A DNA stretch of 64,000 nucleotides from Croceivirga sp. (GTDB lineage: Bacteria; Bacteroidota; Bacteroidia; Flavobacteriales; Flavobacteriaceae), in assembly GCA_028284935.1 (NCBI GenBank), contig JANQQQ010000039.1:310001-374000 (forward strand), in the 5' to 3' direction. The notes under the pieces were generated by a model. The model made no database searches. It was not told where the DNA came from and was given only the letters and a program-made list of their open reading frames with translations. Below, one piece after another: positions 27,603-41,429 of the stretch. Position numbers and translations under genes: made by a program. Positions within the stretch are counted from its first letter, which is position 1, and each line of letters starts with the position of its first letter.

Positions 27603-28061
27603 TTATGCCCTTAAGTGTAACTTCATTCCCTCGTGGGAGGCCTTGAATCCAAGATTTTCATAAAATTTTAAGGCTTCAGGTCGCTTTTTATCCGTGGTCA
27701 ATTGCACCATATGTGCCCCTTTATTTTTGGCCCTTTCAATGGCCCATTCAAATAAATGTTTTCCCAGACCTTTGCCCCGCATGCTTTCATGAATTCTAAC
27801 CTGTTCAATTTGTGCTCGAATCCCACCTTGGTAGGTCAAATATTGAAGGAAAGCGAGTTGTAAAGTACCCATAACCCTTCCCAAGTCATCCTCTAACACC
27901 ACCAATTCTTGATGAGGGTCAGTATCGATTCGTTCAAAAGCGTTCCAATAGACATCTGGCAAGGGGTCTTTAACCTGTTCACGGTAACGCCCCAATGAAT
28001 CGTTCGCCAGCATTTCTACAATGGCAGGAACATCTTTCTTGGAAGCTTTTCGGATTGTCAT
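27603..28061 (-). CDS. GNAT-family N-acetyltransferase
   Basis: 152 residues with a clear Acetyltransf_1 core: MTIRKASKKDVPAIVEML start, VMGTLQLAFLQYL, the acetyl-CoA-binding HESMRGKGLGKHLFEWAIE (R/Q-x-x-G-x-G/A loop) and ALKFYENLGFKASHEGMKL. The substrate is unknown. The ATG overlaps the stop of the exported DinB-like protein by one base, so they form a two-gene unit. Confidence 0.88.
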   Translation of the reverse strand: MTIRKASKKDVPAIVEMLANDSLGRYREQVKDPLPDVYWNAFERIDTDPHQELVVLEDDLGRVMGTLQLAFLQYLTYQGGIRAQIEQVRIHESMRGKGLGKHLFEWAIERAKNKGAHMVQLTTDKKRPEALKFYENLGFKASHEGMKLHLRA

Positions 28062-28708
28062 TAGGAGGTAATCCTACTTTTTAAGAATTTAAAAACGCCA
28101 TTATGGTTCGATTCATGTTCGCAGACATGAAACCATTTACAATAGTTGTTTGTTGGACCCCAGGGGAAATCATTATCCACCGAAAACAGCCAATCGTCAT
28201 CCCGCTTCTTGAACTCTGCAAGCGTATTTTCGCGGATAGTTGACATTTCTTCAAGATAGTAATCCAAGGGTTTTCCTTTGATTTCCGATCTTCCTCTATC
28301 ACCGAGCATGGAGGCGGCACCATACTTTATTAGGTCCTCTTCTGGGAAATCACCCCACCTTTTATTGTTAAACGTGTTGATTTGATAAAAGCGTTCCGTA
28401 GCGGCTAAATGCATAAGCATGGCCCCAATAGTATTGGCTCTTTCATCAATTAAATAGTCCAAGTCCGAAACGCTCATTCCTCGGACAGGAACAAGCATTA
28501 CTTCACGCATCCAGTTCATCATCGACACTAAAGTTCCAATATGGGGCGAATATCCCTTCCTTGGACCTATAACATTCATATTCTCCAGTGTTGCGGAAGG
28601 GATTGAAGTCGGTACTGAAGTCGCACCCATGAGTGGAGCGGCTACGGCACTCATAGCCAAAAAAGAACTATGTTGAATAAATTTTCGACGTTTGAAAGAA
28701 TTCTTCAT
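28061..28708 (-). CDS. Exported DinB-like metal-binding protein with twin-arginine signal
   Basis: The ATG at 28706-28708 (215 residues, MKNSFKRRKFIQHSS) is preferred over a TTG 14 codons upstream because it begins directly with a Tat-type signal: RRKFIQ followed by the hydrophobic SSFLAMSAVAAPLMGA. The body is a DinB/YfiT four-helix bundle with His in AMLMHLAATERFYQ and a His pair in WFHVCEHESNHNGVF, matching the three-His divalent-metal site. Most DinB proteins are cytoplasmic and act in thiol-dependent transfer or hydrolysis; a folded, metal-loaded, exported form would explain use of Tat. The function is unknown. Coupled to the downstream GNAT gene. Confidence 0.82.
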   Translation of the reverse strand: MKNSFKRRKFIQHSSFLAMSAVAAPLMGATSVPTSIPSATLENMNVIGPRKGYSPHIGTLVSMMNWMREVMLVPVRGMSVSDLDYLIDERANTIGAMLMHLAATERFYQINTFNNKRWGDFPEEDLIKYGAASMLGDRGRSEIKGKPLDYYLEEMSTIRENTLAEFKKRDDDWLFSVDNDFPWGPTNNYCKWFHVCEHESNHNGVFKFLKSRITS

Positions 28709-28819
28709 GTCGTTTTCGTTTATTCTAAAGATAAAAGAAAACAAGTCCAATCCCCTGATGAAAAATCAAATATATTGACCACTTGTCTTCTTGGGACGGA
28801 AAGAAGCTTCTAAACCAGG

Positions 28820-31800
28820 TTATTCATTAACGTTTTCCACCCACTCCCGTGCATTGATAAAGGCCTGGATCCAAGGAGAGATTTCATCATTTCTATCCTT
28901 TGGGTAATGCGCCCAGTTCCAGGGAAATATACTTCGTTCCATATGGGGCATGGTTACCAAATGGCGGCCTGTCTTATCGCAGAGCATCGCCACGTTGTAA
29001 TCACTTCCATTGGGATTGGCAGGATATTCAGCATACCCATATTTGGCGACGATATCATAATGGTCTTCTTCCAAAGGTAGGCTGAATTTGCCTTCGCCAT
29101 GGCTTATCCACACCCCTAAAGTGCTTCCTTCCAAGTTGGATAGCATTACCGAAGGATTCTTTTGAACTTTGACCGAGGTAAAATTACTTTCGTGTTTATT
29201 GGAATCGTTGTAGGTCATTTTTCCATGTTGTTCCCCATGTTCGGGATTGATCAAATCCAATTCCATAAACAATTGGCAACCGTTGCAGATACCTATGGAA
29301 AGGGTATCCGGCCTTGCAAAGAAATCGTCAATGACCTTTTTGGCTTTTTCATTGTACTTTATGGCGCCTGCCCAACCTTTGGCCGAACCCAAAACGTCAG
29401 AGTTGGAGAACCCTCCCACAGCCCCTAAGAACTGGATATCCTTTAAATCTTCACGACCGGAAATCAAGTCGGTCATATGCACATCCTTAACCTCAAAACC
29501 AGCCAAATACATAGCATGGGCCATTTCTCGTTCAGAGTTGCTCCCTTTTTCACGAAGGATGGCGGCTTTTGGCCGGTCACTTCGAGTGGCCCCAGTGACC
29601 GGATGGCTGAGGTTACTCGAGGTCACCCATTTTGGAAAGGTATACGTTAAGGGCTGCTTTTTGTAGTTCTCATAACGGTCTTTGGCCAGCCCATTTGAAG
29701 TTTGTTGGTTATCCAGTAAATAAGAAGTCTTGTACCACGTATCACGAAGGGAGCTTACGTTCAATCCCAATTCCACGCCTCTATTTTTGATTTGCAAAAT
29801 AGCTTCTTTTAGAGGCTTGCCAATCTGTATGAGGTTCAGTCCTTGGGCCTTTAACCGCTCCTCAACTGCATGATTTGCTTGGAACACGATCCCGATGTTT
29901 TCCGAAAACAAAAGTTTAATCGTATCCGACTCCTCCAATCCACTTAAATCAATATCAGCGCCCAAATCAGTATCAGCGAAGCAGATTTCCAATAGGGTCG
30001 TAATCAGTCCTCCCGAACCAATATCATGGCCTGAAACGATGTTTCCAGCCTTGATTTCCTGTTGCACTGCATCAAAAGCCTTTTTAAAGTAAGTAGCATC
30101 TGAAATGGAAGGCGCCTCACTTCCCACGGAATTCAATACTTGATGAAAACTGGAACCACCTAATTTATAGCCATCCCCACTTAAGTTGAGGTAGTAAATA
30201 TCACCCCCATCTTTTTGAAGGACAGGTTCTATGACTTTCTTCAAATCCGAGCAATGGCCCGCAGCAGAAATGATGACCGTACCCGGTGCAATGACCTCCT
30301 GATTCTTATATTTCTGTTTCATGCTCAAGGAGTCCTTCCCCGTGGGAATATTGATACCCAATTCAATGGCAAACTTGGAACAGGCTTCCACAGCATCGTA
30401 CAATCGGGCATCCTCTCCAGGATTACGGCAAGGCCACATCCAGTTGGCGGAAAGGGAAACCGATTTCAGGCCTTCCTCCAATGGTGCCCAAATGATGTTG
30501 GTCAAGGCTTCGGCGATACTGTTTCTACTTCCCGCAACCGGATCGATCAAACCGGAGATAGGGGAGTGGCCAATACTGGTAGCGATTCCTTCCTTTCCCT
30601 TAAAATCCAGGGCCATGACCCCACAGTTATTAAGTGGTAATTGAAGCGGACCGGCACATTGTTGCTTCGCCACACGGCCACCCACGCAGCGGTCCACTTT
30701 GTTGGTCAACCAGTCCTTACAAGCAACGGCTTCCAGTTGTAATACCTGTTCCAAATACTCGTGGAAATGCTCCAACGTGTATGAGCTGTTCTTGAATTGC
30801 GTTTCGAGCTTCGCATCTTCCATAATGGTTTTGGGAGAGCTCCCAAATAGGGCAGAAAGTTCTACGTCCATAGGTTTTTCCCCAGTGGTCTTGCTTTCAA
30901 AGGTAAAGCGCTGGTCCCCCGTAACTTCTCCCACCTCAAATAGGGGGGAACGTTCACGTTCTGCAATTTTTTTTAGGGTGGTCATGTCCTTTTCGCCCAT
31001 GACCAAGCCCATGCGCTCCTGACTTTCATTGCCGATTAACTCTTTGGCCGAAAGGGTAGGATCTCCAACAGGTAGTGCATCCAGATCAACATGGCCACCT
31101 GTTTCTTCCACCAGTTCGGAGAGGCAATTTAAATGCCCACCCGCGCCATGGTCATGAATCGATACTATCGGGTTTCCCTCACTTTCCACCAAACCTCGTA
31201 TCGCATTGGCCGCCCGTTTCTGCATTTCTGGGTTGCTACGCTGTACCGCATTCAGTTCAATGGCAGATTCAAACTCACCGGTATCCGCACTGGAGACGGC
31301 AGCTCCACCCATACCAATACGGTAGTTGTCGCCTCCAAGGATAACCACTTTGTCGCCCTTTTTCGGCGTGTCCTTTAGTGCCTGTTCGGTTTTTCCATAG
31401 CCAATTCCACCGGCAAGCATGATGACTTTGTCATAGCCCAACTTTATATGGTGGCTGAGGTTGCTCGAAGCCATCTTTTCTTGGTCATTTCGAGAGGCCT
31501 CAGTGACCTCTTGATGTTCGAAGGTGAGTAAAGACCCCGCAATCAAAGGTTGGCCAAATTTGTTCCCGAAATCGGAAGCCCCGTTACTGGCCTTGATCAA
31601 AATGTCCATGGGGGTTTGGTACAACCATTCCCGTTCCGGAAAGGCCCTTTCCCAGGGTCTTGATGCTTCCAAACGAGAGTATGAGGTCATATAGACCGCA
31701 GTTCCTGCCAAGGGAAGACTTCCTTTACCACCTGCCAATCGGTCACGGATTTCCCCACCCGAACCGGTAGCGGCACCATTAAAGGGCTCTACCGTTGTCG

Positions 31801-32554
31801 GGAAATTATGGGTTTCTGCTTTTAGGGAGAGTACGGAATCGAATTCGGTTTCTTTGTAAAAATCGGGTTGATCTGCCCTTTTTGGAGCAAACTGTACCGC
31901 TTTTGGGCCCTTGATGAAGGCCACGTTGTCTTTGTAGGCGGAAACAATACCATTTGGATGTTCCTCGGAGGTCTTTTTGATGAGCTTAAAAAGGGACGTG
32001 GGTTTTTCTTCCCCGTCAATCACAAAAGTGCCATTAAAGATTTTATGGCGACAGTGTTCGGAATTCACCTGACTGAAGCCGAAAACCTCGGAATCGGTCA
32101 ATTTGCGATCTAGGTCTTTCGAAAGCTTTTCCAGATAGGCCACTTCGTCATCACTCAAGGCCAGGCCTTCCTTTTGGTTGTAAGCTGCAATATCCCCAAT
32201 CTCCAAAATGGGTTCTGGGGTAATGTTGATAGTAAAAATATCCTGCCCCAAACTAGGGTACTTTTGGAAAAGCATGGGATCGTAGTCTTGGTGCCCCTTT
32301 TCAATCGCCCAGAACTCTTCGATTCTCACAATACAGGAAATCCCCATATTTTGAGTAATCTCAGTGGCGTTGGTACTCCAAGGGGTAAGCATGGTGGCGC
32401 GGGGACCAACAAAAAAGGCGTCAAGTGACGCCGCTTCTATCTTGGGTTGGTTGCCGAACAACCATGTTAGTTTTTCTTGGTCCTGTCGAGAAAGCTCTTG
32501 ATGAGTCTGTAGTGCGAAAACCTTGGTTTTTGGGTCTCCGAAAAAGTGAATCAT
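28820..32554 (-). CDS. purL: Phosphoribosylformylglycinamidine synthase, large single-chain form
   Basis: 1244 residues combining the FGAM synthase domains and a C-terminal glutaminase. Visible are EVFGFSQVNSEHCRHKIFNG, ETHNFPTTVEPFNGAATGSG, MLAGGIGYGKTEQAL, HDHGAGGHLNCLSELVEE, GICNGCQLFMEL (glutaminase Cys) and SHGEGKF (His). It converts FGAR, glutamine and ATP to FGAM in de novo purine synthesis. Two short segments (about residues 349-369 and 976-995) are encoded by a palindromic repeat inserted in frame. They fall between LTFEHQE and LGYDKVIML, and in the linker before KAAILREKG, both places where surface loops are expected, so activity is probably retained. A -7 box lies 20 nt upstream of the start. 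Confidence 0.97.
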   Translation of the reverse strand: MIHFFGDPKTKVFALQTHQELSRQDQEKLTWLFGNQPKIEAASLDAFFVGPRATMLTPWSTNATEITQNMGISCIVRIEEFWAIEKGHQDYDPMLFQKYPSLGQDIFTINITPEPILEIGDIAAYNQKEGLALSDDEVAYLEKLSKDLDRKLTDSEVFGFSQVNSEHCRHKIFNGTFVIDGEEKPTSLFKLIKKTSEEHPNGIVSAYKDNVAFIKGPKAVQFAPKRADQPDFYKETEFDSVLSLKAETHNFPTTVEPFNGAATGSGGEIRDRLAGGKGSLPLAGTAVYMTSYSRLEASRPWERAFPEREWLYQTPMDILIKASNGASDFGNKFGQPLIAGSLLTFEHQEVTEASRNDQEKMASSNLSHHIKLGYDKVIMLAGGIGYGKTEQALKDTPKKGDKVVILGGDNYRIGMGGAAVSSADTGEFESAIELNAVQRSNPEMQKRAANAIRGLVESEGNPIVSIHDHGAGGHLNCLSELVEETGGHVDLDALPVGDPTLSAKELIGNESQERMGLVMGEKDMTTLKKIAERERSPLFEVGEVTGDQRFTFESKTTGEKPMDVELSALFGSSPKTIMEDAKLETQFKNSSYTLEHFHEYLEQVLQLEAVACKDWLTNKVDRCVGGRVAKQQCAGPLQLPLNNCGVMALDFKGKEGIATSIGHSPISGLIDPVAGSRNSIAEALTNIIWAPLEEGLKSVSLSANWMWPCRNPGEDARLYDAVEACSKFAIELGINIPTGKDSLSMKQKYKNQEVIAPGTVIISAAGHCSDLKKVIEPVLQKDGGDIYYLNLSGDGYKLGGSSFHQVLNSVGSEAPSISDATYFKKAFDAVQQEIKAGNIVSGHDIGSGGLITTLLEICFADTDLGADIDLSGLEESDTIKLLFSENIGIVFQANHAVEERLKAQGLNLIQIGKPLKEAILQIKNRGVELGLNVSSLRDTWYKTSYLLDNQQTSNGLAKDRYENYKKQPLTYTFPKWVTSSNLSHPVTGATRSDRPKAAILREKGSNSEREMAHAMYLAGFEVKDVHMTDLISGREDLKDIQFLGAVGGFSNSDVLGSAKGWAGAIKYNEKAKKVIDDFFARPDTLSIGICNGCQLFMELDLINPEHGEQHGKMTYNDSNKHESNFTSVKVQKNPSVMLSNLEGSTLGVWISHGEGKFSLPLEEDHYDIVAKYGYAEYPANPNGSDYNVAMLCDKTGRHLVTMPHMERSIFPWNWAHYPKDRNDEISPWIQAFINAREWVENVNE
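29573..29628. repeat. Palindromic element, in-frame copy in the purL interdomain linker
   Basis: First half: perfect 9-bp stem CCGGTCACT (29573-29581) with AGTGACCGG (29594-29602) around the 12-nt loop 29582-29593. Second half: GGATGGCT (29601-29608), 12-nt loop, and 29621-29628, pairing at seven of eight positions if G-T pairs are allowed. Read in the purL frame it encodes VTSSNLSHP then VTGATRSDRP. The half-units are in the opposite order to the other two copies. The same sequence families occur at 31450-31508 and 38770-38828. Confidence 0.88.
31450..31508. repeat. Palindromic element, in-frame copy in the purL first synthetase domain
   Basis: First half: GGTGGCT (31450-31456), 12-nt loop, AGCCATC (31469-31475). 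Second half: GGTCATT (31483-31489), 12-nt loop, AGTGACC (31502-31508). Each stem has one G-T pair and no mismatch. In the purL frame it reads VTEASRNDQEK then MASSNLSHH, interrupting the stretch between LTFEHQE and the conserved GYDKVIMLAGG. It shares orientation and spacing with the intergenic copy at 38770-38828. Confidence 0.9.
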
Positions 32555-32574
32555 TGCAATGAATTTGGAAAATA

Positions 32575-32582
32575 CAAATTTA
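32575..32582 (-). promoter_or_regulatory. Probable -7 box upstream of purL
   Basis: Minus strand TAAATTTG, an exact TAnnTTTG match, 20 nt before the purL ATG. No good TTG lies 19-21 nt further upstream, so only half of the promoter is supported by sequence. Confidence 0.45.
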
Positions 32583-32758
32583 AGTGTTTATACTAAAATT
32601 CACATCCAGTAGAAGTAGACTTGTTAACGGGAGGTGTTGATAGCAGTAGTGCGTTTTGCTCAGTGTTTGGGTTTAGGTGCGAGTTGAAAACTCCCACTAG
32701 TGGAAGGACTGCACTTTGTTAACATCAGTTTTTTACATTCTTGCAGTTTAGACGAATT

Positions 32759-34156
32759 TTATAATCTTCTTTCAATAGTCTTTATGAATTCATTATTATG
32801 ATTAAACTCTAACCTTTGAGTTTTTTCTTTGTCTGTTTTTTCAAAGGTTATCTTTAATGGAATTAAATCAGAATAAAAAGTGTATTCATCACTCGGATAA
32901 ATATACATTGGATTATCACCATGTGATGTCAAAGTCATTTTGCCATTAATGATTTTGATTTCTACCGTTGTTTTTTCGGAAGGGAAATCATAAACTCCAA
33001 TATGTTTGTGCATAAATTGGGTTAATGGAAGTTTTGCAGGAGTCTGTTTTGGTAATTTATACTCCTTGTCCATAAGTATTTTTTGGATGGTATGCCCCAA
33101 TAAACTTCTTTCACTATACTCACTATTGGTCAAAACAATAACTACTATATTTTCTTTTTTATAGTATCGATGCATGGCTTTGTACCCATAAATTCTGCCT
33201 GCAAAGCCATAAATAAAATAAGGTTTGTCTTTTTTGGAATAATCCCAAACTTCCCAACCATAAGTGTTAAATGGCCGAGGCTCTTTCTCTAACGCCCATC
33301 TTCTTTTCATAAGTTCAACACTTTTCTTCGATAGTATTTTTGCCTTTTCGACCGACAAATGAAATTTGTAAACATCATCAACTGTAGAATACAACGAACC
33401 GCCTCCTCCTAAAGAGTAACTGTCAAAATATTTTGCGTGTGCCAAATTGTCCACACCATATTGGTCTGGAGCACGATTAATTCCGATGGACAAGTTTTTT
33501 ATTCTTCTATTTTTGTGCTTTCTAATACCTGTATTTTTCATGTCAGACGGTCTGAAAATGTGGCGCTTAAAATAGTTTTCATACGTCAAGCTGCTTACTT
33601 TTTCTAAAATATGCGTTAGGGCATAGAATCCCACATTGGAATATTCACTTTTCGTGCCCGGTTCAAAATTGAGAGTATCATTTTTTACGGATTGCACTCT
33701 TTCCAAAGGAGTTACCTCAGCATCATAATCTAAACGCGAATCTCGCCTTAAGCCTGACTGGTGACTTAGTAAATGATGAATGGTAATCTTATCTGAGTCT
33801 CGTATTTCTGGCAACCATTTAGACAATTTGTCTTCCAAACTGAGTTTTCCTTTTTCTACTAATTGCAAAATAGCTACGGTAGTGAATTGCTTCGTAATTG
33901 ACCCAATAAAATACCTTGAACCAATATTGTTTAAGGTTTTTTTTTCAAGATTTGAATACCCAAAAGCACCCCTATATATAATACTGTCATCTTGTGCAAC
34001 TAATACAGATCCACTGAAAGGAGTTAGACTATTGACATTTGCCTCTAATAATTCATTTATTTTAAGGGAATCATAGGATTCATCGGGTGAGCTTTGGGCA
34101 AAAGATAGTGTTGGGATAAGAATAATTGCCAACGTTATTATTTTATCTGCGACCAT
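32759..34156 (-). CDS. Secreted serine hydrolase, class C beta-lactamase-related
   Basis: 465 residues with a signal peptide (about 1-20, IIPTLSFAQ-like end). The penicillin-binding fold has nucleophile motif S86-I-T-K89 in FIGSITKQFTT, and Y172-S-N174 as the second motif. The third, usually HxG or KTG, is not obvious; YGFAGRIYGY near the expected position may substitute. A small C-terminal beta domain (DUF3471-like, HIGVYDFPSEKTTVEIK) follows. Such proteins are peptidases or esterases rather than true beta-lactamases in most cases. The gene is visibly AT-richer than purL and lies 17 nt after a shortened MarR regulator, so the pair may have been acquired together. Confidence 0.88.
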   Translation of the reverse strand: MVADKIITLAIILIPTLSFAQSSPDESYDSLKINELLEANVNSLTPFSGSVLVAQDDSIIYRGAFGYSNLEKKTLNNIGSRYFIGSITKQFTTVAILQLVEKGKLSLEDKLSKWLPEIRDSDKITIHHLLSHQSGLRRDSRLDYDAEVTPLERVQSVKNDTLNFEPGTKSEYSNVGFYALTHILEKVSSLTYENYFKRHIFRPSDMKNTGIRKHKNRRIKNLSIGINRAPDQYGVDNLAHAKYFDSYSLGGGGSLYSTVDDVYKFHLSVEKAKILSKKSVELMKRRWALEKEPRPFNTYGWEVWDYSKKDKPYFIYGFAGRIYGYKAMHRYYKKENIVVIVLTNSEYSERSLLGHTIQKILMDKEYKLPKQTPAKLPLTQFMHKHIGVYDFPSEKTTVEIKIINGKMTLTSHGDNPMYIYPSDEYTFYSDLIPLKITFEKTDKEKTQRLEFNHNNEFIKTIERRL

Positions 34157-34173
34157 GGTGAAATATTTTGAAA

Positions 34174-34482
34174 TTATTTTGTACGATTTTCGATGATTTG
34201 ATTTACGGTTTCTTGAAGCTTGATTAAATCTTTTAACTCCATGTTTAAGATGGCCGTCGCTTTGTTAGAGGTAATGATTTGTTTTAATTTTGCAATGGTA
34301 TTATGCCCTTTTTTGTGGGTGAAATTTTGCAATGGCAACGTTTTTTTGTTATTTCTACGTTGTAAATAACCATTCTTCCTAAGAATTTCTACCATTCCGG
34401 TAACGCAAGCTTTGTCTTTCAAAATAATATTACTGAGTTCTACTTTCGTGGCTTCATTATCAGTTAAATAAACTAAAATCAT
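34174..34482 (-). CDS. MarR-like winged-helix protein lacking the N-terminal helices
   Basis: 102 residues. The frame begins at the end of helix 2 (MILVYLTDNEATKVELS), goes through the recognition-helix region LKDKACVTGMVEILRKNGY and wing LQRRNNKK, and ends with the C-terminal dimerisation helix. MarR proteins are normally 135-160 residues, with about 35-45 residues before this point, which are missing. The region upstream (34483-34620) has no frame with convincing MarR homology, although a palindrome sits at the spot where the promoter of a full-length gene would be. It may be a decayed gene or a naturally short protein. It is 17 nt upstream of the serine hydrolase and probably once controlled it. 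Confidence 0.68.
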   Translation of the reverse strand: MILVYLTDNEATKVELSNIILKDKACVTGMVEILRKNGYLQRRNNKKTLPLQNFTHKKGHNTIAKLKQIITSNKATAILNMELKDLIKLQETVNQIIENRTK

Positions 34483-34623
34483 AGCTTAGTCTAAGGTTGT
34501 GTGGTTGAAAAGTACATTTACCTGTTTCTGTGCAAACCCTCCTACATTCGTTTATTGCCCGTTTAATACCGTAAAACCGTCTCGTTAGGTTGTTTAAACG
34601 TTCTAATTTAAAACATTGACACA

Positions 34624-34649
34624 AATATATTTGATATATCAAATATATT
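34624..34649. promoter_or_regulatory. Perfect 26-bp palindrome upstream of the shortened MarR gene
   Basis: AATATATTTGATA followed by its exact complement, with TTTGATATATCAAA as the core. It lies about 142 nt before the present start codon, which is roughly the length of the missing N-terminal coding region plus a short leader. It is a likely MarR operator. It differs in sequence from the palindrome at 20889-20920. Confidence 0.62.
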
Positions 34650-34813
34650 ATTAATTTTTTAAATTTTAACAATTTGAAATTATGTTCAACTGTTGGTTGT
34701 GTGCGATTGGGTATATTGCTTTTCAGATATGATTAAATCATCTTAAAATTGGTGACAACGGTCTCCTTTACCCTCAAGCACCTAACTTAATAAAGGGAAA
34801 GAAAAGAACTGAA

Positions 34814-34834
34814 AGGGCTCTAACTTAGAGCCCT
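34814..34834 (-). terminator. Possible terminator after the arsR-SRPBCC pair
   Basis: Perfect 8-bp stem AGGGCTCT (34814-34821) and AGAGCCCT (34827-34834) with a 5-nt loop. On the minus strand it is followed by a pyrimidine-rich stretch with scattered T runs rather than a clean T tract, so strength is doubtful. It lies 142 nt after the SRPBCC stop. Confidence 0.45.
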
Positions 34835-34976
34835 GCCTAGCGATTCCATGTATGGCTAAGCCATAGATAGCTATAGTTGGATACTATGCGAAAGATTCCC
34901 CAGTTTTGTGGTTTCTTTATGGATTTGATCGTAGATTCCTTTTGCTTTTGGCGATAGTTTCACGTTGTTTTTTTAA

Positions 34977-35423
34977 CTACCAAGTTCGCAGTGCCTTTCC
35001 TTTTTCAAGATATTCCTGTAACGATTCGTGGATGAGATAGTTCCAACCGCCCACAAAATTGTCCCGAACAAAATCCGGATTATCCCGTGGAAAGCTATGT
35101 AAGCCTTCGTGGGTAAGCTTCAATAGGGTAGTGTCGCCTTGATCAAATAGCTCAAAGGTCACGAAGGAAAGCCCGGTGTACCCTTGATATTTCCAAGAAT
35201 ATTTGAGTTTTTTAAGGGGGACAATCTCCACAATCTCGCATTCATGTATATAGCGACGACCCTCCTTGCCGCCTTCAAAATGAAAGATTGCGCCTATCTG
35301 CAGTTGGAAGTCTGGGATGTCAAAATACCATTTCTTCATCAATTCTTTGTCAGAGATACACTTCCAAACCAGGGCAACGGGTGCTTTGTATTCTTGTTTA
35401 ATAACAAGGGGTTGCTCACTCAT
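34977..35423 (-). CDS. SRPBCC (AHSA1-like) ligand-binding domain protein
   Basis: 148 residues with the START-like pattern: an N-terminal IKQEYKAPVALVWKCISDKELMKKWYF, the paired strands FHFEGGKEGRRYIHECEIVEI and LKYSWKYQGYTGLSFVTFEL, and the C-terminal helix GGWNYLIHESLQEYLEKGKAL. These proteins bind hydrophobic ligands in a central cavity. Genes of this type are frequently paired with an ArsR-family regulator, as here (2-nt gap). The ligand and role are unknown; the small size argues against an enzyme. Confidence 0.88.
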   Translation of the reverse strand: MSEQPLVIKQEYKAPVALVWKCISDKELMKKWYFDIPDFQLQIGAIFHFEGGKEGRRYIHECEIVEIVPLKKLKYSWKYQGYTGLSFVTFELFDQGDTTLLKLTHEGLHSFPRDNPDFVRDNFVGGWNYLIHESLQEYLEKGKALRTW

Positions 35424-35425
35424 GA

Positions 35426-35767
35426 TTAGGATTGTTTTGATGGGTTATTTCTGGGTTGGGTTTGCAGTTCCCGCAAGAGGTCGTCGAGCTTGTTGAGCCT
35501 GCTGGCCCAAACTTCCCTGAAGGGTGCCAACCAATCGGCCACTTCGCCCAATTTTTGAGGCTCAAGGCGACAATAGCGTTCGCGACCTTCCTTTTTGACG
35601 GTGATGACGCCACATTCCTTCAAGTATTTGATGTGTAGCGATACAGCCTGTCGGGTCATATCGAACCGATCCGCCAATGCATTCACATTATGTGCCTCTT
35701 TGGTAAGCGACAGCAAGATACTCCTTCGGGTGGGGTCGGCGATGGCATTGAATACATCTCTTTTCAA
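35426..35767 (-). CDS. ArsR-family winged-helix repressor
   Basis: I place the start at the TTG at 35765-35767 (113 residues, MKRDVFNAIADPTRRSIL), where family homology begins. The longer open frame runs back through the promoter and operators and its first 41 residues do not look like protein. HTH: VNALADRFDMTRQAVSLHIKYLKECG, then wing ITVKKEGRERYCRLEPQKL. No metal-binding ELCVCDL-type Cys motif is present, so it is not a classical metal sensor; this subgroup usually pairs with SRPBCC proteins. Inverted repeats on its own promoter indicate autorepression. Confidence 0.88.
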   Translation of the reverse strand: MKRDVFNAIADPTRRSILLSLTKEAHNVNALADRFDMTRQAVSLHIKYLKECGVITVKKEGRERYCRLEPQKLGEVADWLAPFREVWASRLNKLDDLLRELQTQPRNNPSKQS

Positions 35768-35769
35768 AA

Positions 35770-35812
35770 TGCAAGTGTTTGCTTGCAAATATATAAGCAA
35801 GTTTTTACTTGC
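35770..35812. promoter_or_regulatory. Promoter and overlapping operators of arsR
   Basis: The minus strand has a -7 box TATATTTG (35786-35793) with TTG 20 nt upstream, a good match to the Bacteroidota promoter. Overlapping it are inverted repeats built from the same unit: TGCAAG/CTTGCA (35770-35775 with 35782-35787), CTTGC/GCAAG (35782-35786 with 35797-35801) and GCAAGT/ACTTGC (35797-35802 with 35807-35812). A repressor bound here would cover both promoter elements. Confidence 0.82.
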
Positions 35813-35894
35813 GCAACTATTTTTTTGGACTTTACGTACGAAAAGCATCCAGTAGGGAAGTTGTTTACGGAGTTTGTGACTACAGAACAAAAAG

Positions 35895-38105
35895 CTACAG
35901 CCTAAAATTATACCGTACTTTTAATAATATCTGTCGGTTTTGCAACTCCCAAGGCTGGTTGTTGATATTATTAATAGTATTGTTGTTAAAGACCAAGAAG
36001 ACATCGCCCAGGGGTGAAAATATCCAATGTATACGGGCGTTTAATCCCAAGACCCGGCTATCCGTATCGTATTGCAGGTAACTGTTTAATTGCAAATTGG
36101 AGGTGACATTAAAGCGAACACGAAGCCCAGCCAAGGTCTGGTTAAAATCCCCGAAGGGCAGTCTGGCCCGGTTGTGCAATCCGGCGAATTCAAAGGCCAA
36201 CAAAGCACTGGGGTTCCAATTGAGGCTCAATTCGAACTCATCCAAGTTCCCTTCATAAAAACTACCGAACCACCACGTGGCCTCCCCGCTCAACCGACGT
36301 TTACGCGCAAATTCCGCTTCGAGGCGATAGCGCATAAAATTATATTCCCCTACGGGAATGGTGACCCCATCCGATATCTCAAAAGGTCCCAAAATGTTTT
36401 CACCAACCGGTCTGATATTGGCTTCAATGCGATCACCACTTTCCAATCGCCAGTTAATGGGTGCAGTAAATACACTATACGATTGCCAAGGTCCTGAAAG
36501 GGTATTGATATAGGTGACAAAAAGTTCATGGAACATTTGGCGTAGCCAAGGGGCCTGCGGTCGAGGGGCAAAAGTACCGCCAACACGATAAAAATTCACA
36601 CCGCGGCGGGGCACAAACCCCAAAGAAGGGTCAAAATCCTCTCCAATACGGGCATAGGTCATGGCAATATCCCATCGATCGTTCGGATAATCAATTTTGA
36701 ATCCTGCAGCAGAACGGTCACCTGCTAAATCCTCTCGGTTGGTAAAGAGGGCCCAACCTCCAACGATAAAGTTTTTATCCCCGTTGAATCGTGTCGTCTG
36801 AAAGGTAAAATCAGCCCCCGACATCCAACTGCCATCACGCCCCAAAGGATCTCCTGAGGTGGCTATGAACCCTACCGAACTTTCTGTAAGCACGTTGCGA
36901 CGCACCCGTACTACCCCCATATTGGTAGCACTAAAGCTATCCTCTTCCAAATTGAAGTCCCCTGTGCGGATACCCAACCCCCCAAAAGCGGTCTTCCCAA
37001 TACGACCATTGAGTTTAGTGCCCCCAACCACAGGAATCTGCACATTATTGCGTAAGCCAATACGTCGACTAAAAAAGGGAAGTACAGTGCTGCGACCCGT
37101 TCCAAAACCGAACTCGAAAATATCGGAACCTTCGAGAAAAAATATTCTCCGCTCAGGAAAAAATAAGGGAAAGCGGGTCAAGTTCGTCTGTCTAGTATCT
37201 ACCTCGGTTTCCCCAAAATCAGTATTTGCAGTGAAGGTCGCCAAAACGTTCGGACCAATACGCTGGTTCGCATCCAAACTAATATCAGGCTTCACTACCA
37301 TCGCACCATTGGGTCCCGTTTGATTGGCATTGGCAATCAATGACGGACGTACATTGACCCCTACGCCATAATTGAATTCGGGAAGCCCTGTGACCAAGCC
37401 TGCACGACTAGTCTGGGCAAAAAATTGGTCCCGTTTCACATTGGCCCAGCGAATGGTTTCCAGGTTTCGCTGTATCCTACGTTCGATATTAAAACCCCAT
37501 TTCGATAACCCTTTTTTAAAGGCAATACTTTGAATGGGAATCACAATTTCGGCCGTCCAACCCTTCTCGGTAATCTGGGTCTTGGCATCCCAAACGGCAT
37601 CCCAGTCCTCATTCTCACTTTCACCGCGATCCGAAACCAGGGCATCATAGCGGGCCGCCAAGGAATTGACGGCAAAGATGTAACCCGATTGTCCATCCAG
37701 AAAGGGATCAATGACCACTTTCACATGGTCTTCTTCAGAAATATCGGCATCCCGAAGTTTGGAGAAGCGAATAATGCCCTCTGGGTTGGTATCCTTACAG
37801 GTTATGCCGATGACCACGTTTCGTGCATTGGCAATGACTTGGACCCAGGTGGTCTGCGAGGGCGTGCCCCCTTCTTCAGGGACTGTTGTTTTTAAGGTAT
37901 TGAGGATGGGAGCATTTTTCCAATCGGCTTCGTTCAACGCGCCATCAAAATCCAAGGGTTCCGTTAATGCACCGGAAGCGAATTCAGGTCGCTGCACGGT
38001 CTGGCCCATGGTAGTACCCGGTAGTACAAGTACAGCCAAAATAAGGAAGAAGGCATTAAGGCAACAGTTCAGTTGTTTGGTTTGTACGGTTTGGACTGTA
38101 TTCAA
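35895..38105 (-). CDS. DUF5916-type outer-membrane protein with N-terminal CBM9-like domain
   Basis: 736 residues. The only start giving an intact signal peptide is a TTG at 38103-38105; cleavage is likely after TTMGQ. Residues about 40-230 match the family 9 carbohydrate-binding-like domain common at the N-terminus of DUF5916 proteins (LDGALNEADWKNAPIL-like segment, DEDHVKVVIDPF, IPIQSIAF). The rest is rich in amphipathic beta strands and ends RYNFRL, an aromatic/basic C-terminus typical of outer-membrane barrels. Family function is unknown; surface binding or uptake of a carbohydrate or lipid is plausible. The arsR promoter lies just past its 3' end, so it is an independent unit. Confidence 0.85.
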   Translation of the reverse strand: MNTVQTVQTKQLNCCLNAFFLILAVLVLPGTTMGQTVQRPEFASGALTEPLDFDGALNEADWKNAPILNTLKTTVPEEGGTPSQTTWVQVIANARNVVIGITCKDTNPEGIIRFSKLRDADISEEDHVKVVIDPFLDGQSGYIFAVNSLAARYDALVSDRGESENEDWDAVWDAKTQITEKGWTAEIVIPIQSIAFKKGLSKWGFNIERRIQRNLETIRWANVKRDQFFAQTSRAGLVTGLPEFNYGVGVNVRPSLIANANQTGPNGAMVVKPDISLDANQRIGPNVLATFTANTDFGETEVDTRQTNLTRFPLFFPERRIFFLEGSDIFEFGFGTGRSTVLPFFSRRIGLRNNVQIPVVGGTKLNGRIGKTAFGGLGIRTGDFNLEEDSFSATNMGVVRVRRNVLTESSVGFIATSGDPLGRDGSWMSGADFTFQTTRFNGDKNFIVGGWALFTNREDLAGDRSAAGFKIDYPNDRWDIAMTYARIGEDFDPSLGFVPRRGVNFYRVGGTFAPRPQAPWLRQMFHELFVTYINTLSGPWQSYSVFTAPINWRLESGDRIEANIRPVGENILGPFEISDGVTIPVGEYNFMRYRLEAEFARKRRLSGEATWWFGSFYEGNLDEFELSLNWNPSALLAFEFAGLHNRARLPFGDFNQTLAGLRVRFNVTSNLQLNSYLQYDTDSRVLGLNARIHWIFSPLGDVFLVFNNNTINNINNQPWELQNRQILLKVRYNFRL

Positions 38106-38191
38106 TACTCACATCTAAATCACAAGGAAAGATAGTTCATAGTTAATTCCTAAAGCCGATACCTGTTTAGTTTAGTGTGGTTCTAAATACG

Positions 38192-38734
38192 TCAAGGGAC
38201 CAATTCAATTCTTGAAATGGTCAATTCAAAACTTTCGGGAACTTTATTGCCGATGAGCAAGGCAATTTCTTCAATGGTCGTATGATTGAAATTGGGAAGG
38301 TTCAATCGCCTTCCTCGAAACCTGGGGTAGAGGTCCTTTAATTTGAACGCCACCGTTTGCCAGTTTCCATCGGTATCAAATGGAATGATATAGCTATAAT
38401 ATTGGTCCCTTTGGTTTTTTACCCTCAATTGATATCGCTTTCCATCCCCCTTCAATCGTAAGCTAATGGTATGCTCAGGGCGTACGATTGTTTTGGGAAT
38501 TCCGTACCGAACGGAGGAAAAGCCCCCATTATTTTCCAAGGATACCTTGCCGTAAAATCTGGCATGGCCTTCTTCCGTAATTTCAAGTTGTCCATTGGAA
38601 CGTCCGCCCATGACCACGTCATCCAGAACGTACCAGCTTTCTGGGCTTGGAGTGTTTTTACTATCGAAAAGGGCTTGTGCGTTCATAGCGATGGATAAAA
38701 GTAAAAACAGTAATGTACTTGACTTTATTTTCAT
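38192..38734 (-). CDS. Exported CIA30-family (NADH dehydrogenase complex I assembly factor 30-like) protein
   Basis: 180 residues with a signal peptide (LLFLLLSIAMNAQA). The pattern WYVLDDVVMGGRSNGQLEIT, YGKVSLENNGGFSSVRYG, LRLKGDGKRYQLRVKN and LPNFNHTTIEEIALLIGNK is characteristic of the CIA30 galactose-binding-like beta sandwich. Despite the name, bacterial members are not assembly factors of a known complex; they are thought to bind sugars or proteins in the periplasm. It lies downstream of the intergenic palindromic element. Confidence 0.88.
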   Translation of the reverse strand: MKIKSSTLLFLLLSIAMNAQALFDSKNTPSPESWYVLDDVVMGGRSNGQLEITEEGHARFYGKVSLENNGGFSSVRYGIPKTIVRPEHTISLRLKGDGKRYQLRVKNQRDQYYSYIIPFDTDGNWQTVAFKLKDLYPRFRGRRLNLPNFNHTTIEEIALLIGNKVPESFELTISRIELVP

Positions 38735-38769
38735 TGTGCCTTTGCGGCTTGTTAGGTTTCATTGTATCA

Positions 38770-38828
38770 GGTGGCTGAGGTAACTCGAAGCCACTTTGTT
38801 TCGGTCACTTCGAGTAACCTCAGTGACC
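38770..38828. repeat. Palindromic element, intergenic copy
   Basis: First half: GTGGCT (38771-38776), 12-nt loop, AGCCAC (38789-38794). Second half: GGTCACT (38803-38809), 12-nt loop, AGTGACC (38822-38828). The halves are inverted copies of one another with different but internally complementary stems. On the minus strand one frame is open and reads VTEVTRSDRNK then VASSYLSHL, closely resembling the peptide encoded by the purL copy at 31450-31508. Confidence 0.9.
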
Positions 38829-38931
38829 TATTATCGTCCAACATTAGATATTTAACTTCCATTTGTTACATCTTTCAATTGAGGGTTTCTCATGCTAACA
38901 GGTTAGGTTCGAAATGACAGCGTATTGGTTG

Positions 38932-38983
38932 TCGTCGTTTCGACAGAGCTGTGACACTGAGCTTGTCGAAGTGGATGCGACGA
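38932..38983. repeat. Second hairpin repeat type (TTCGACA...TGTCGAA)
   Basis: TTCGACA (38939-38945) pairs with TGTCGAA (38964-38970), and an outer arm TCGTCG (38932-38937) pairs with CGACGA (38978-38983). It is unlike the purL-type element in stem sequence. Short TTCGACA-type repeats are common in intergenic regions of Bacteroidota. Only one copy is visible here, between the exported methyltransferase and the other repeat. Confidence 0.65.
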
Positions 38984-38997
38984 GAAATCCAATATTT

Positions 38998-39699
38998 TCA
39001 TTTTACGAAAACCATACAATGTTGCCACGGTAGATTGACAATATTTTCTTTGAGTTCAAATCCAATGGCGTTCATTTCCTTTACCGCTTGTTCCTCTGTC
39101 ATTTTGTGCAATCGTTTGATGGGCACCTTGGGGTCTTCGCCACGGTATTCAATCAAATAAATTTCGCCACTTGGTTTCAATGCTTTCTTTATGGAACGCA
39201 TCATCTCCACAGGGTGACTCATTTCGTGATAGACATCCACTATCAACACCTTATCCAAACTATTGGGCCCAAGGTTCACACTTGTTCTTGTACCCTGAAT
39301 CAGTTTTACATTGGTATGATTACCTGCTTCTTTTTTGATTTTCATGGCTGAAATCATCTCCTTTTGAATGTCGACCGCATAAATGATTCCATCTGTTGCG
39401 ATTTTGGCCATTTTAAAAGCATGATATCCAGAACCCGCTCCAATATCAGCAATATGATCCGTTTTTTTGATGTTCATGTTTTGGAGGAGGGTGGTCGTTT
39501 TTTCTTCTTCCTCGCGTTCCCTTCGCTCCAACCAAGACATGCCTTGATAACCCATGACATAGGCAATTTCACGACCCATGAACCATTTTCCAATACCGCC
39601 ATAGTCCCCACTTTTATAGGTGTATAGGGAGTCTTGGGATTGCAGGATACCTGAAAACAAAAGAAGAAATCCAAGGAGTTTTAAGGGGAAACTATTCAT
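38998..39699 (-). CDS. Exported class I SAM-dependent methyltransferase
   Basis: 233 residues. Residues 1-21 look like a signal peptide (LKLLGFLLLFSGILQSQ). The Rossmann methyltransferase motifs are IADIGAGSGYHAFKMAK (motif I), IIYAVDIQKEM (acidic end of strand 2), LDKVLIVDVYHEMSHPVEMM (motif IV/post) and SGEIYLIEYRG. SAM-dependent enzymes are normally cytoplasmic, so export is odd, but proteins with this layout occur in marine Bacteroidota. The substrate is unknown. It is flanked by repeats upstream of CIA30 and by SulP. Confidence 0.82.
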   Translation of the reverse strand: MNSFPLKLLGFLLLFSGILQSQDSLYTYKSGDYGGIGKWFMGREIAYVMGYQGMSWLERREREEEEKTTTLLQNMNIKKTDHIADIGAGSGYHAFKMAKIATDGIIYAVDIQKEMISAMKIKKEAGNHTNVKLIQGTRTSVNLGPNSLDKVLIVDVYHEMSHPVEMMRSIKKALKPSGEIYLIEYRGEDPKVPIKRLHKMTEEQAVKEMNAIGFELKENIVNLPWQHCMVFVK

Positions 39700-39779
39700 G
39701 CATTACTATTTCCTTGGTTGGCTGTTGTCCAAAAATACGATGATGAAATCTAGGGACTTCCTAAAATTCTTCTAAAGTT

Positions 39780-41429
39780 TTACTCCAGTTGTTGTTTGAG
39801 GTAGTCGAAGGCCCTATCTACTTTCTCAAAGATATCCTCTTCAGGTACCAGATCAGGGATGATGTCAATTTCCGTCAATTGATCAAAAGGTTGTTCCTGT
39901 AACCCGGTTAAAATGACTTCAATGTTTTGCGCACGTAAATCAAAAATGGCCTCTTCCAAGGCATATACTCCAGATTGGTCAATAAAGGGAACCCGGTCCA
40001 TTCTGATAATCAGGGCTTTAATGTCGCTCCCCAAATTCTTGATTCCATCTTTAAAATAAGAGGTAAACCCAAAGAAGAAGGGGCCATACAAGTGTTTAAT
40101 GATGACCTTGTCCTTATAAGTTTCATAAAATTCCAACTCATCTTGCCATGGCTTTTCACCGTCAAAATCCGAAACCGGCCCAACATCCAATCCCTTTACT
40201 GCCAAATCGCTGGATTTTTTCATGAAAAGCAAAGCGGCCAGGGCCACACCTATTCCCACGGCATTGATCAAACTGCCAAAGGTGGTAATCAACAAGACGA
40301 TGATAAGCACTATCGCATCGGCTCTGGGAACTACTTTTAGATGTTTTAAGCCCTTGAAATCAATAATTTTGAATCCCACTGGGATCAAAAGGCCAGCGAG
40401 GACTGCCAATGGAATATGTGCTGCCAAGGTGCCCAAGCCCAATAAAACAGCCAAAAGAAATAGGCCATGCAATGCACCGGATAGACGTGTTTTTCCACCT
40501 GCGTTGATGTTAACCACAGTGCCCTTTGTTGCTCCTGCTCCTGGAATGCCTCCAATGATTGCAGCCAACATGTTCCCGATGCCCTGACCAATAAGTTCCC
40601 GGTTGCTATTGTGTTTGGTCTTGGTCATGTTGTCTGCAATGACCGAAGTAAGTAAAGAATCAATACTTCCCAAAACGGCCAAGACAAAGGCGTACTCAAC
40701 GATAATGCCATAGGCATCGGCATCAATGGGCCACATGGTTCCGATTTGTAAGGCCGGAAGTCCGGAAGGGATTTCCCCAATAACGGGAACGTCCCATTTT
40801 AGAAAATACGCAGCTAATGAGGCCACCAAAAGTGCTACCAAGGCGCTAGGGATGGCCTTTGTTATTTTTGGAAACAAATAATACACCCCTACAGTTAATC
40901 CTCCCAATGCCAGCGCATACAGATTGGCTTCGGTAAACATTCGGGGCAGGTCTTGAATCACCGCGACCGTGGATTTTGGTGATGACAATCCTACCAAAGG
41001 GAATAATTGCAATATGATAATAATGAGCCCAACTCCGCTCATAAAACCAGAAACCACGGGATAGGGAAAATACTTGACATATCCGGCAATATTCAAGAGG
41101 CCAAAAATTATTTGTATCAATCCTCCCAATAAAAAAGTAACCAGAATAACACCTATGGCATTGTCAAGACTACCGTTCATTTGAATGGCTCCTGCCACAA
41201 GGGCTGCAGAAACCACTGTCATTGGACCCGTGGGCCCACTGGCTTGTGTTTCCGTACCTCCGAAGAGTGCTGCAAATATCCCCACGGCAATGGCACCATA
41301 AAGTCCAGCGGCAGCTCCCATACCGGACTGAACGCCAAAAGCAAGGGCCAGGGGTAGCGCAATAACTCCCGCTACCAGTCCTCCGGTTAAATCCCCTTTG
41401 AAATTCTTGAAATCATATAGTCTTTTCAT
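39780..41429 (-). CDS. SulP-family inorganic anion transporter with STAS domain
   Basis: I use the ATG at 41427-41429 (549 residues, MKRLYDFKNFKGDLTGG); a TTG upstream would add 17 unlikely residues. The membrane part has 10-14 hydrophobic helices with GLVAGVIALPLALAFGVQSG and GGTETQASGPTGPMTVVSA, both SulP signatures. The last ~110 residues are a STAS domain with RMDRVPFIDQSGVYALEEA. The family transports sulfate, bicarbonate or dicarboxylates with Na+ or H+; in marine bacteria bicarbonate transport (BicA-type) is common. Which anion cannot be said. It is divergent from gntP. Confidence 0.92.
   Translation of the reverse strand: MKRLYDFKNFKGDLTGGLVAGVIALPLALAFGVQSGMGAAAGLYGAIAVGIFAALFGGTETQASGPTGPMTVVSAALVAGAIQMNGSLDNAIGVILVTFLLGGLIQIIFGLLNIAGYVKYFPYPVVSGFMSGVGLIIIILQLFPLVGLSSPKSTVAVIQDLPRMFTEANLYALALGGLTVGVYYLFPKITKAIPSALVALLVASLAAYFLKWDVPVIGEIPSGLPALQIGTMWPIDADAYGIIVEYAFVLAVLGSIDSLLTSVIADNMTKTKHNSNRELIGQGIGNMLAAIIGGIPGAGATKGTVVNINAGGKTRLSGALHGLFLLAVLLGLGTLAAHIPLAVLAGLLIPVGFKIIDFKGLKHLKVVPRADAIVLIIVLLITTFGSLINAVGIGVALAALLFMKKSSDLAVKGLDVGPVSDFDGEKPWQDELEFYETYKDKVIIKHLYGPFFFGFTSYFKDGIKNLGSDIKALIIRMDRVPFIDQSGVYALEEAIFDLRAQNIEVILTGLQEQPFDQLTEIDIIPDLVPEEDIFEKVDRAFDYLKQQLE

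Follow-up and report, generated by a model that had tools for sequence, protein, structure and literature searches.

The purL gene of this Croceivirga genome contains, in frame and at two separate places, pairs of inverted REP-like palindromes. Such palindromes stand in frame, are absent from many relatives and have other copies; different families occupy the same loops, and decayed forms occur as well. We consider it highly probable that REP-like palindromes were inserted more than once into permissive loops, were kept in frame and then decayed to spacer, and repeat DNA appears in this way to have been turned into additional protein segments. The features concerned are collected in Table 1; the window is the whole stretch of 64,000 nucleotides that was analysed (contig JANQQQ010000039.1, positions 310,001 to 374,000).

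Table 1. Position of the purL gene and of the palindrome pairs in the window
Feature	Coordinates	Strand	Remarks
purL, phosphoribosylformylglycinamidine synthase	28820..32554	-	1244 aa, frame intact; Pfam FGAR-AT_N, linker, AIRS_C, PurM_N-like, GATase_5
Site 1, pair of inverted REP-like hairpins in frame in purL	31450..31508	-	net +18 residues relative to the 7-residue form
Site 1 half-element GGTCATTTCGAGAGGCCTCAGTGACC	31483..31508	+	covariance-model E 1.4e-5; among the sequences from which the model was built
Site 1 half-element GATGGCTTCGAGCAACCTCAGCCACC	31450..31475	-	covariance-model E 9.3e-6; among the sequences from which the model was built
Site 2, second in-frame pair in purL	29575..29627	-	order of halves opposite to site 1; encodes WVTSSNLSHPVTGATRSDR
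Intergenic pair	38770..38828	+	flanked by minus-strand reading frames 38192-38734 and 38998-39699

The element at site 1 is a pair of inverted hairpins of 59 nt that, as first proposed, leaves the PurL frame intact, and its coding strand reads VTEASRNDQEKMASSNLSHH. Matching copies had been announced near 29573 and 38770, and both exist; what the original prediction missed is that the former, our site 2, is itself in frame in purL. According to Pfam, AIRS_C starts at residue 398, downstream of site 1, and the glutaminase domain GATase_5 at residue 994, immediately after site 2, with the domain placement as a whole resting on Pfam together with alignments to solved PurL structures. The statement of the original prediction that E. 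coli PurL is shorter at this place agrees with the solved bacterial chain 6jt9, one of the 1t3t group from Salmonella, whose segment at the site 1 position is shorter than the window's in the alignment. An AlphaFold model covering PurL residues 200-640 reached a mean pLDDT of 45.5 and was set aside as poor. A 24-nt half-element pattern with up to three mismatches matched the window three times and had no match in 100 shuffles, and Rfam returned for window positions 28000-40000 a single match (E 0.58), far under the gathering score. A different palindrome-like element, TTTCGACAGAGCTGTGACACTGAGCTTGTCGAAGTGG, occupies 38930-38980, some 100 bases beyond the pair at 38770-38828.

Each half of a pair comprises 26 nt around the core CTTCGAG-NNN-CCTCAG. 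The 7-bp stem of the original prediction was retained, and its 12-nt loop was resolved into a loop of 4 nt on an inner stem of 3 bp (GAG/CTC), set off from the outer stem by a bulge of 2 nt (TC). In a gap-free alignment of 12 halves (ten from the window's genome, two from relatives), 87.5% of the cells were paired, against 21-41% when the partners were slid. The covariation score of these halves exceeded that of all 500 shuffles, with the structure drawn from the same sequences, and changes on both sides occurred at two stem pairs, which is not above the shuffled mean of 2.3. Because the halves are inverted copies of each other, a single long hairpin is the main fold of four of the five pairs of the genome, and the pair in the M1 peptidase gene forms two; the strongest RNA fold among the five (-32.0 kcal/mol) belongs to the intergenic pair.

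Those five pairs, three of them in the window, were found in the 4.23-Mb genome by DNA search and the half-element pattern. The two beyond the window lie in frame in the genes for an ATP-dependent DNA ligase and an M1 family peptidase, which brings the in-frame pairs in conserved genes to four of five, purL being counted twice. The repeat is thus dispersed inside and outside genes, as had been anticipated. A covariance model built from the ten halves of this genome and two others recovered those ten, by construction, at E<=1.1e-4 and gave no further match below E 0.28 among the 150 of 843 first-look candidates that were scored. The wider core CTTCGA-N2-6-CTCAG had 21 matches in the genome versus 3 for the backward control, and among these are halves of the five pairs, some codon matches due to chance and several sites between genes. 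Three copies of this wider core (L110, L111 and L112; contig C2 at 46717, 54052 and 68731) stand about 20-30 bases upstream of the apparent start codon (MLKN...) of three similar genes, where they are possibly a common leader element.

We compared 81 PurL proteins, namely that of the window and the best 80 of 480 loci, in which the length of both loops differs from one family member to another. Site 1 measures 7 residues in 55 of the 81, often near QEEARKL by eye, and 11-37 residues in the other 26. The segment is missing from those 55 proteins, the closest relative (L017) included. The refuting conditions that were checked did not apply: the segment is not universal in relatives and other copies exist. 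L017 combines its short site 1 with a decayed form of the window's site-2 pair, and the same-genus genomes L165-L167 likewise have a short site 1 and a site-2 pair whose stems are broken and whose frame is kept.

Among the 26 longer site-1 forms, a palindrome is recognisable in 12, with differing families, orientations and frames; in the remaining 14 no palindrome was recognised. Ten of the 12 bear the core (window, L019, L021, L060, L062, L063, L067, L072, L073 and L084), four of them (L060, L063, L067 and L072) from one Maribacter clade, and the other two, L025 and L053, bear the TCTCGACTNCGCTCGA palindrome. The TCTCGACTNCGCTCGA palindrome was also seen at the PurL positions that correspond to site 2 in L062, L037 and L040, and L042 has it outside purL. 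In L019 the half-element has become a tandem triple with a 24-nt period that encodes VTEATRSSVTEATRSSVTEATRSD, an expansion within an essential enzyme; at the same PurL place L168 has a pair of another type, and L084 has a mixed array of palindromes. Cores like CTGAGCGTAGTCGAAG were seen in L168, L021 and L062. Matches to the L019 site-2 palindrome were confined to L019 and L169, each time at purL, and a pattern for the L021 type gave no match in 297 loci, being so strict that it misses L021 itself. Both count as palindromes by their own sequence, and are not established as dispersed families.

Within 83 purL genes (L089 was left out, its site 2 not being parsed) 38 core matches were counted when one mismatch was allowed, of which 17 fell at site 1, 12 at site 2 and the other 9 in the remaining 300 kb. 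The two loops hold 29 of these 38 in 7.7 of 308 kb (2.5%), and the codon-shuffle mean for 84 whole genes was 21.8 matches. Two of the 29 loop matches, L056 at site 1 and L079 at site 2, look like chance and were treated as such in the counts of frames and in parsimony. All three reading frames are used by the cores across species (19, 5 and 2 of 26), and the consensus, as we read it, is open by its composition in two of three frames in each orientation. The claim that the element evolved to be translatable is not supported by these two results, and the tolerance of the survivors suffices; the rest of the original reading, a dispersed, in-frame, RPE-like palindrome, stands.

On a PurL tree of the 81 rows, built after removal of both sites and without L168, the site-1 state (7 residues versus longer) changed at least 13 times by parsimony, and recognisable cores changed 10 times at site 1 and 7 times at site 2, counts in which gain and loss are not distinguishable. 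The ends of the insert relative to the short alleles are ambiguous, the pair having 59 nt and the net gain being 54 nt, and no target-site duplication, such as marks the ends of a classical MITE, is definable. Many retained inserts have weak hairpins (L041 -2.0 and L045 -5.7 kcal/mol, as against -21.8 kcal/mol in the window) and the frame persists.

Loops of other proteins were compared as well. Of 14 aligned ligases, that of the window's genome has the longest loop; L206 carries there a CTTCGACTTCGCTCAG-type pair, unlike that of the window's genome, and L207-L209 have a core-like stretch without gain in length over L212, L214 and L215, which makes these three weak cases. The nine remaining aligned ligases showed no core by eye. 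Counted by eye, the M1 peptidase loop has 27 residues in the window's genome and, among 17 relatives, 24-40 residues in L176-L178 and 7-18 in the remaining 14. Other genomes showed an in-frame core in L151 (isoaspartyl peptidase), L146 (LD-carboxypeptidase-like protein) and L288 (PrmC-like protein, named from its sequence); the proteins of L151 and L146 have only a few residues more than their best solved relatives. The pattern CTTCGAG-N1-3-CCTCAG was matched in 48 of 397 genomes of Flavobacteriaceae, and of 29 loci from other genomes that were inspected by eye, 16 were palindromes between genes, 2 held cores in frame and 11 were codon matches due to chance.

These observations can be ordered into the following scenario. 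A pair of inverted REP-like palindromes from a family dispersed in the genome would enter a purL loop without breaking the frame, and the insert, given that open frame, would be translated as part of PurL. Two loops of PurL, together with loops of the DNA ligase and the M1 peptidase, would tolerate such insertions, and the PurL loops of Flavobacteriaceae would be filled repeatedly by palindromes of differing family, orientation and frame. After insertion the hairpin would decay by substitution, while frame and spacer stay. The direction is probably insertion rather than loss, and survival may be a matter of neutral tolerance.

One could instead suppose that one or a few old insertions spread through recombination of purL alleles, the body of the palindrome being replaced by gene conversion from resident repeats. 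The flank ATATRAAGTTGG is common to the window and L019, and the flank AAGTTCGSCTTGG to L168 and L021; some inserts are therefore common or exchanged alleles. Moreover, L025, L030 and L053 have similar 17-residue inserts at site 1, their species being scattered on the PurL tree, which suggests exchange of purL alleles among Muricauda-like species. However, the species differ in the frame and orientation of their cores, other loops are filled too (site 2 of PurL and the ligase loop, the latter in two genomes), and the PrmC-like protein and others contain cores in frame. As a general account, we judge spread of alleles rather unlikely. A bolder version of repeated insertion holds that in Flavobacteriaceae several REP-type families, whichever is resident, keep refilling the same loops of housekeeping enzymes as a continuing source of protein segments, the spacer or hairpin being selected, e.g., for PurL linker length or domain folding, and not merely tolerated; this we regard as doubtful.

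It seems to us very improbable that the linker was always long and fast-evolving, with a coincidental or secondary palindrome and with short forms that arose by deletion. The variable length of both loops, the 14 of 26 long site-1 forms without a recognised palindrome and parsimony counts that do not separate gain from loss would all suit such an ancestral loop, but the identical 7-residue length in 55 of 81 proteins, often near the same motif, the use by core-bearing long forms of sequences found elsewhere in the genomes, and the concentration of cores in the two loops argue against it. Hardly likely, finally, is a hairpin kept for a role in the mRNA, e.g., ribosome pausing between domains: site 2 abuts GATase_5, site 1 is 5' of AIRS_C and stem changes on both sides separate copies at two pairs, but such changes may predate insertion, arising in dispersed copies, and the many inserts with weak or lost hairpins keep their frame, which agrees better with inserts that were tolerated and decayed than with a hairpin of lasting function.

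As to the source of the inserts, the median number of core copies per genome was 29 in 15 genomes with a purL core and 15 in 33 without (Mann-Whitney p=0.0098), in a test without correction for kinship, in which the purL copies are part of the count and the comparison group includes L025 and L030, which bear another palindrome type. The 48 genomes came from 50 chosen out of 80, namely all 15 with a purL core, L025, L030 and 33 others taken in order. A single Y1 transposase match was found in the window's genome, and among 20 Y1 loci from 12 genomes, several of them broken or partial, the core occurred in the examined flanks of 2; in this the element differs from GTAG REPs and REPtrons, which have the Y1 (RAYT) association. 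No enzyme was linked to the repeat, which may be moved by an enzyme acting in trans. By eye, the Y1 gene of this genome (L097 ~1243-1800, contig C16) is accompanied close to its ends by other inverted repeats, CCCCGCTACCGC and GCGGTAGCGGGG, and its locus looks like a GTAG-type REPtron distinct from the purL element.

Translated palindromes are a kind of element already known, from the RPEs of Rickettsia and from intragenic GTAG/CGTC REPs (PMC3733652). For RPEs, the review PMC10969869 gives a length of ~150 bp and a total of ten families, and it counts 44 integrations in R. conorii. The purL element shares with them the presence of palindromic repeats in frame in unrelated conserved genes, here purL twice, DNA ligase and M1 peptidase, and it differs in being ~59 bp long as two 26-nt halves and in the five pairs found in the genome. 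The host phylum also differs from that of Rickettsia. The analogy drawn in the original prediction is therefore apt in that the purL element appears to work like an RPE; yet this comparison, one of descriptions, does not make it a member of an RPE family. The reuse of a loop by several families across species is a feature seen here in Flavobacteriaceae PurL.

A further precedent is the report from 2013 of intragenic REPs in several other bacteria, by which the phenomenon is not confined to Rickettsia (PMC3733652). In the parts of its main text considered here, GTAG/CGTC REPs are small palindromes whose dimers encode 20-30 residues, lie in DNA ligase and repair genes among others, sometimes two per gene, and occupy about the same site in recB of two Xanthomonas species; flexible linkers or loops are suggested as neutral places for REPs, and CGTC repeats are mentioned in Bacteroidetes (PMC3733652). 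The name purL is absent from its main text, and the parts considered report no repeated occupation of a site by different repeat families among the species of one bacterial family (PMC3733652). Like those REPs, palindromes of 20-40 bp and often inverted dimers, our elements consist of 26-nt halves in five inverted pairs, but by eye no constant GTAG or CGTC motif flanks the stem in the 12 halves. A literal REP, mostly extragenic and in many copies, does not describe the five pairs of this genome, four of which are inside genes, although the related core in other genomes of the family is mostly intergenic (16 of 29 loci, by eye). A REPIN or BIME consists of two inverted REP units close together; the pairs resemble it in that two close inverted units can fold as one hairpin, and they differ in their number of five and in having no linked Y1 transposase. 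Among the literature matches listed, seen as titles and starts of abstracts, none described an in-frame palindrome in Flavobacteriaceae. What looks new is the host group, the untagged repeat family and the occupation of the same loops by more than one family.

The finding extends protein-coding palindromes to the Flavobacteriaceae. It further provides, within one essential enzyme, a comparative series made up of the short form, the regular palindrome, the tandem expansion and the decayed spacer, on which the conversion of repeat DNA into protein, the neutrality of its survival and the frequency of hits on the same loop can be tested. It also calls for caution: where PurL linkers vary in these bacteria, they may represent repeat DNA of recent origin and not a conserved function.
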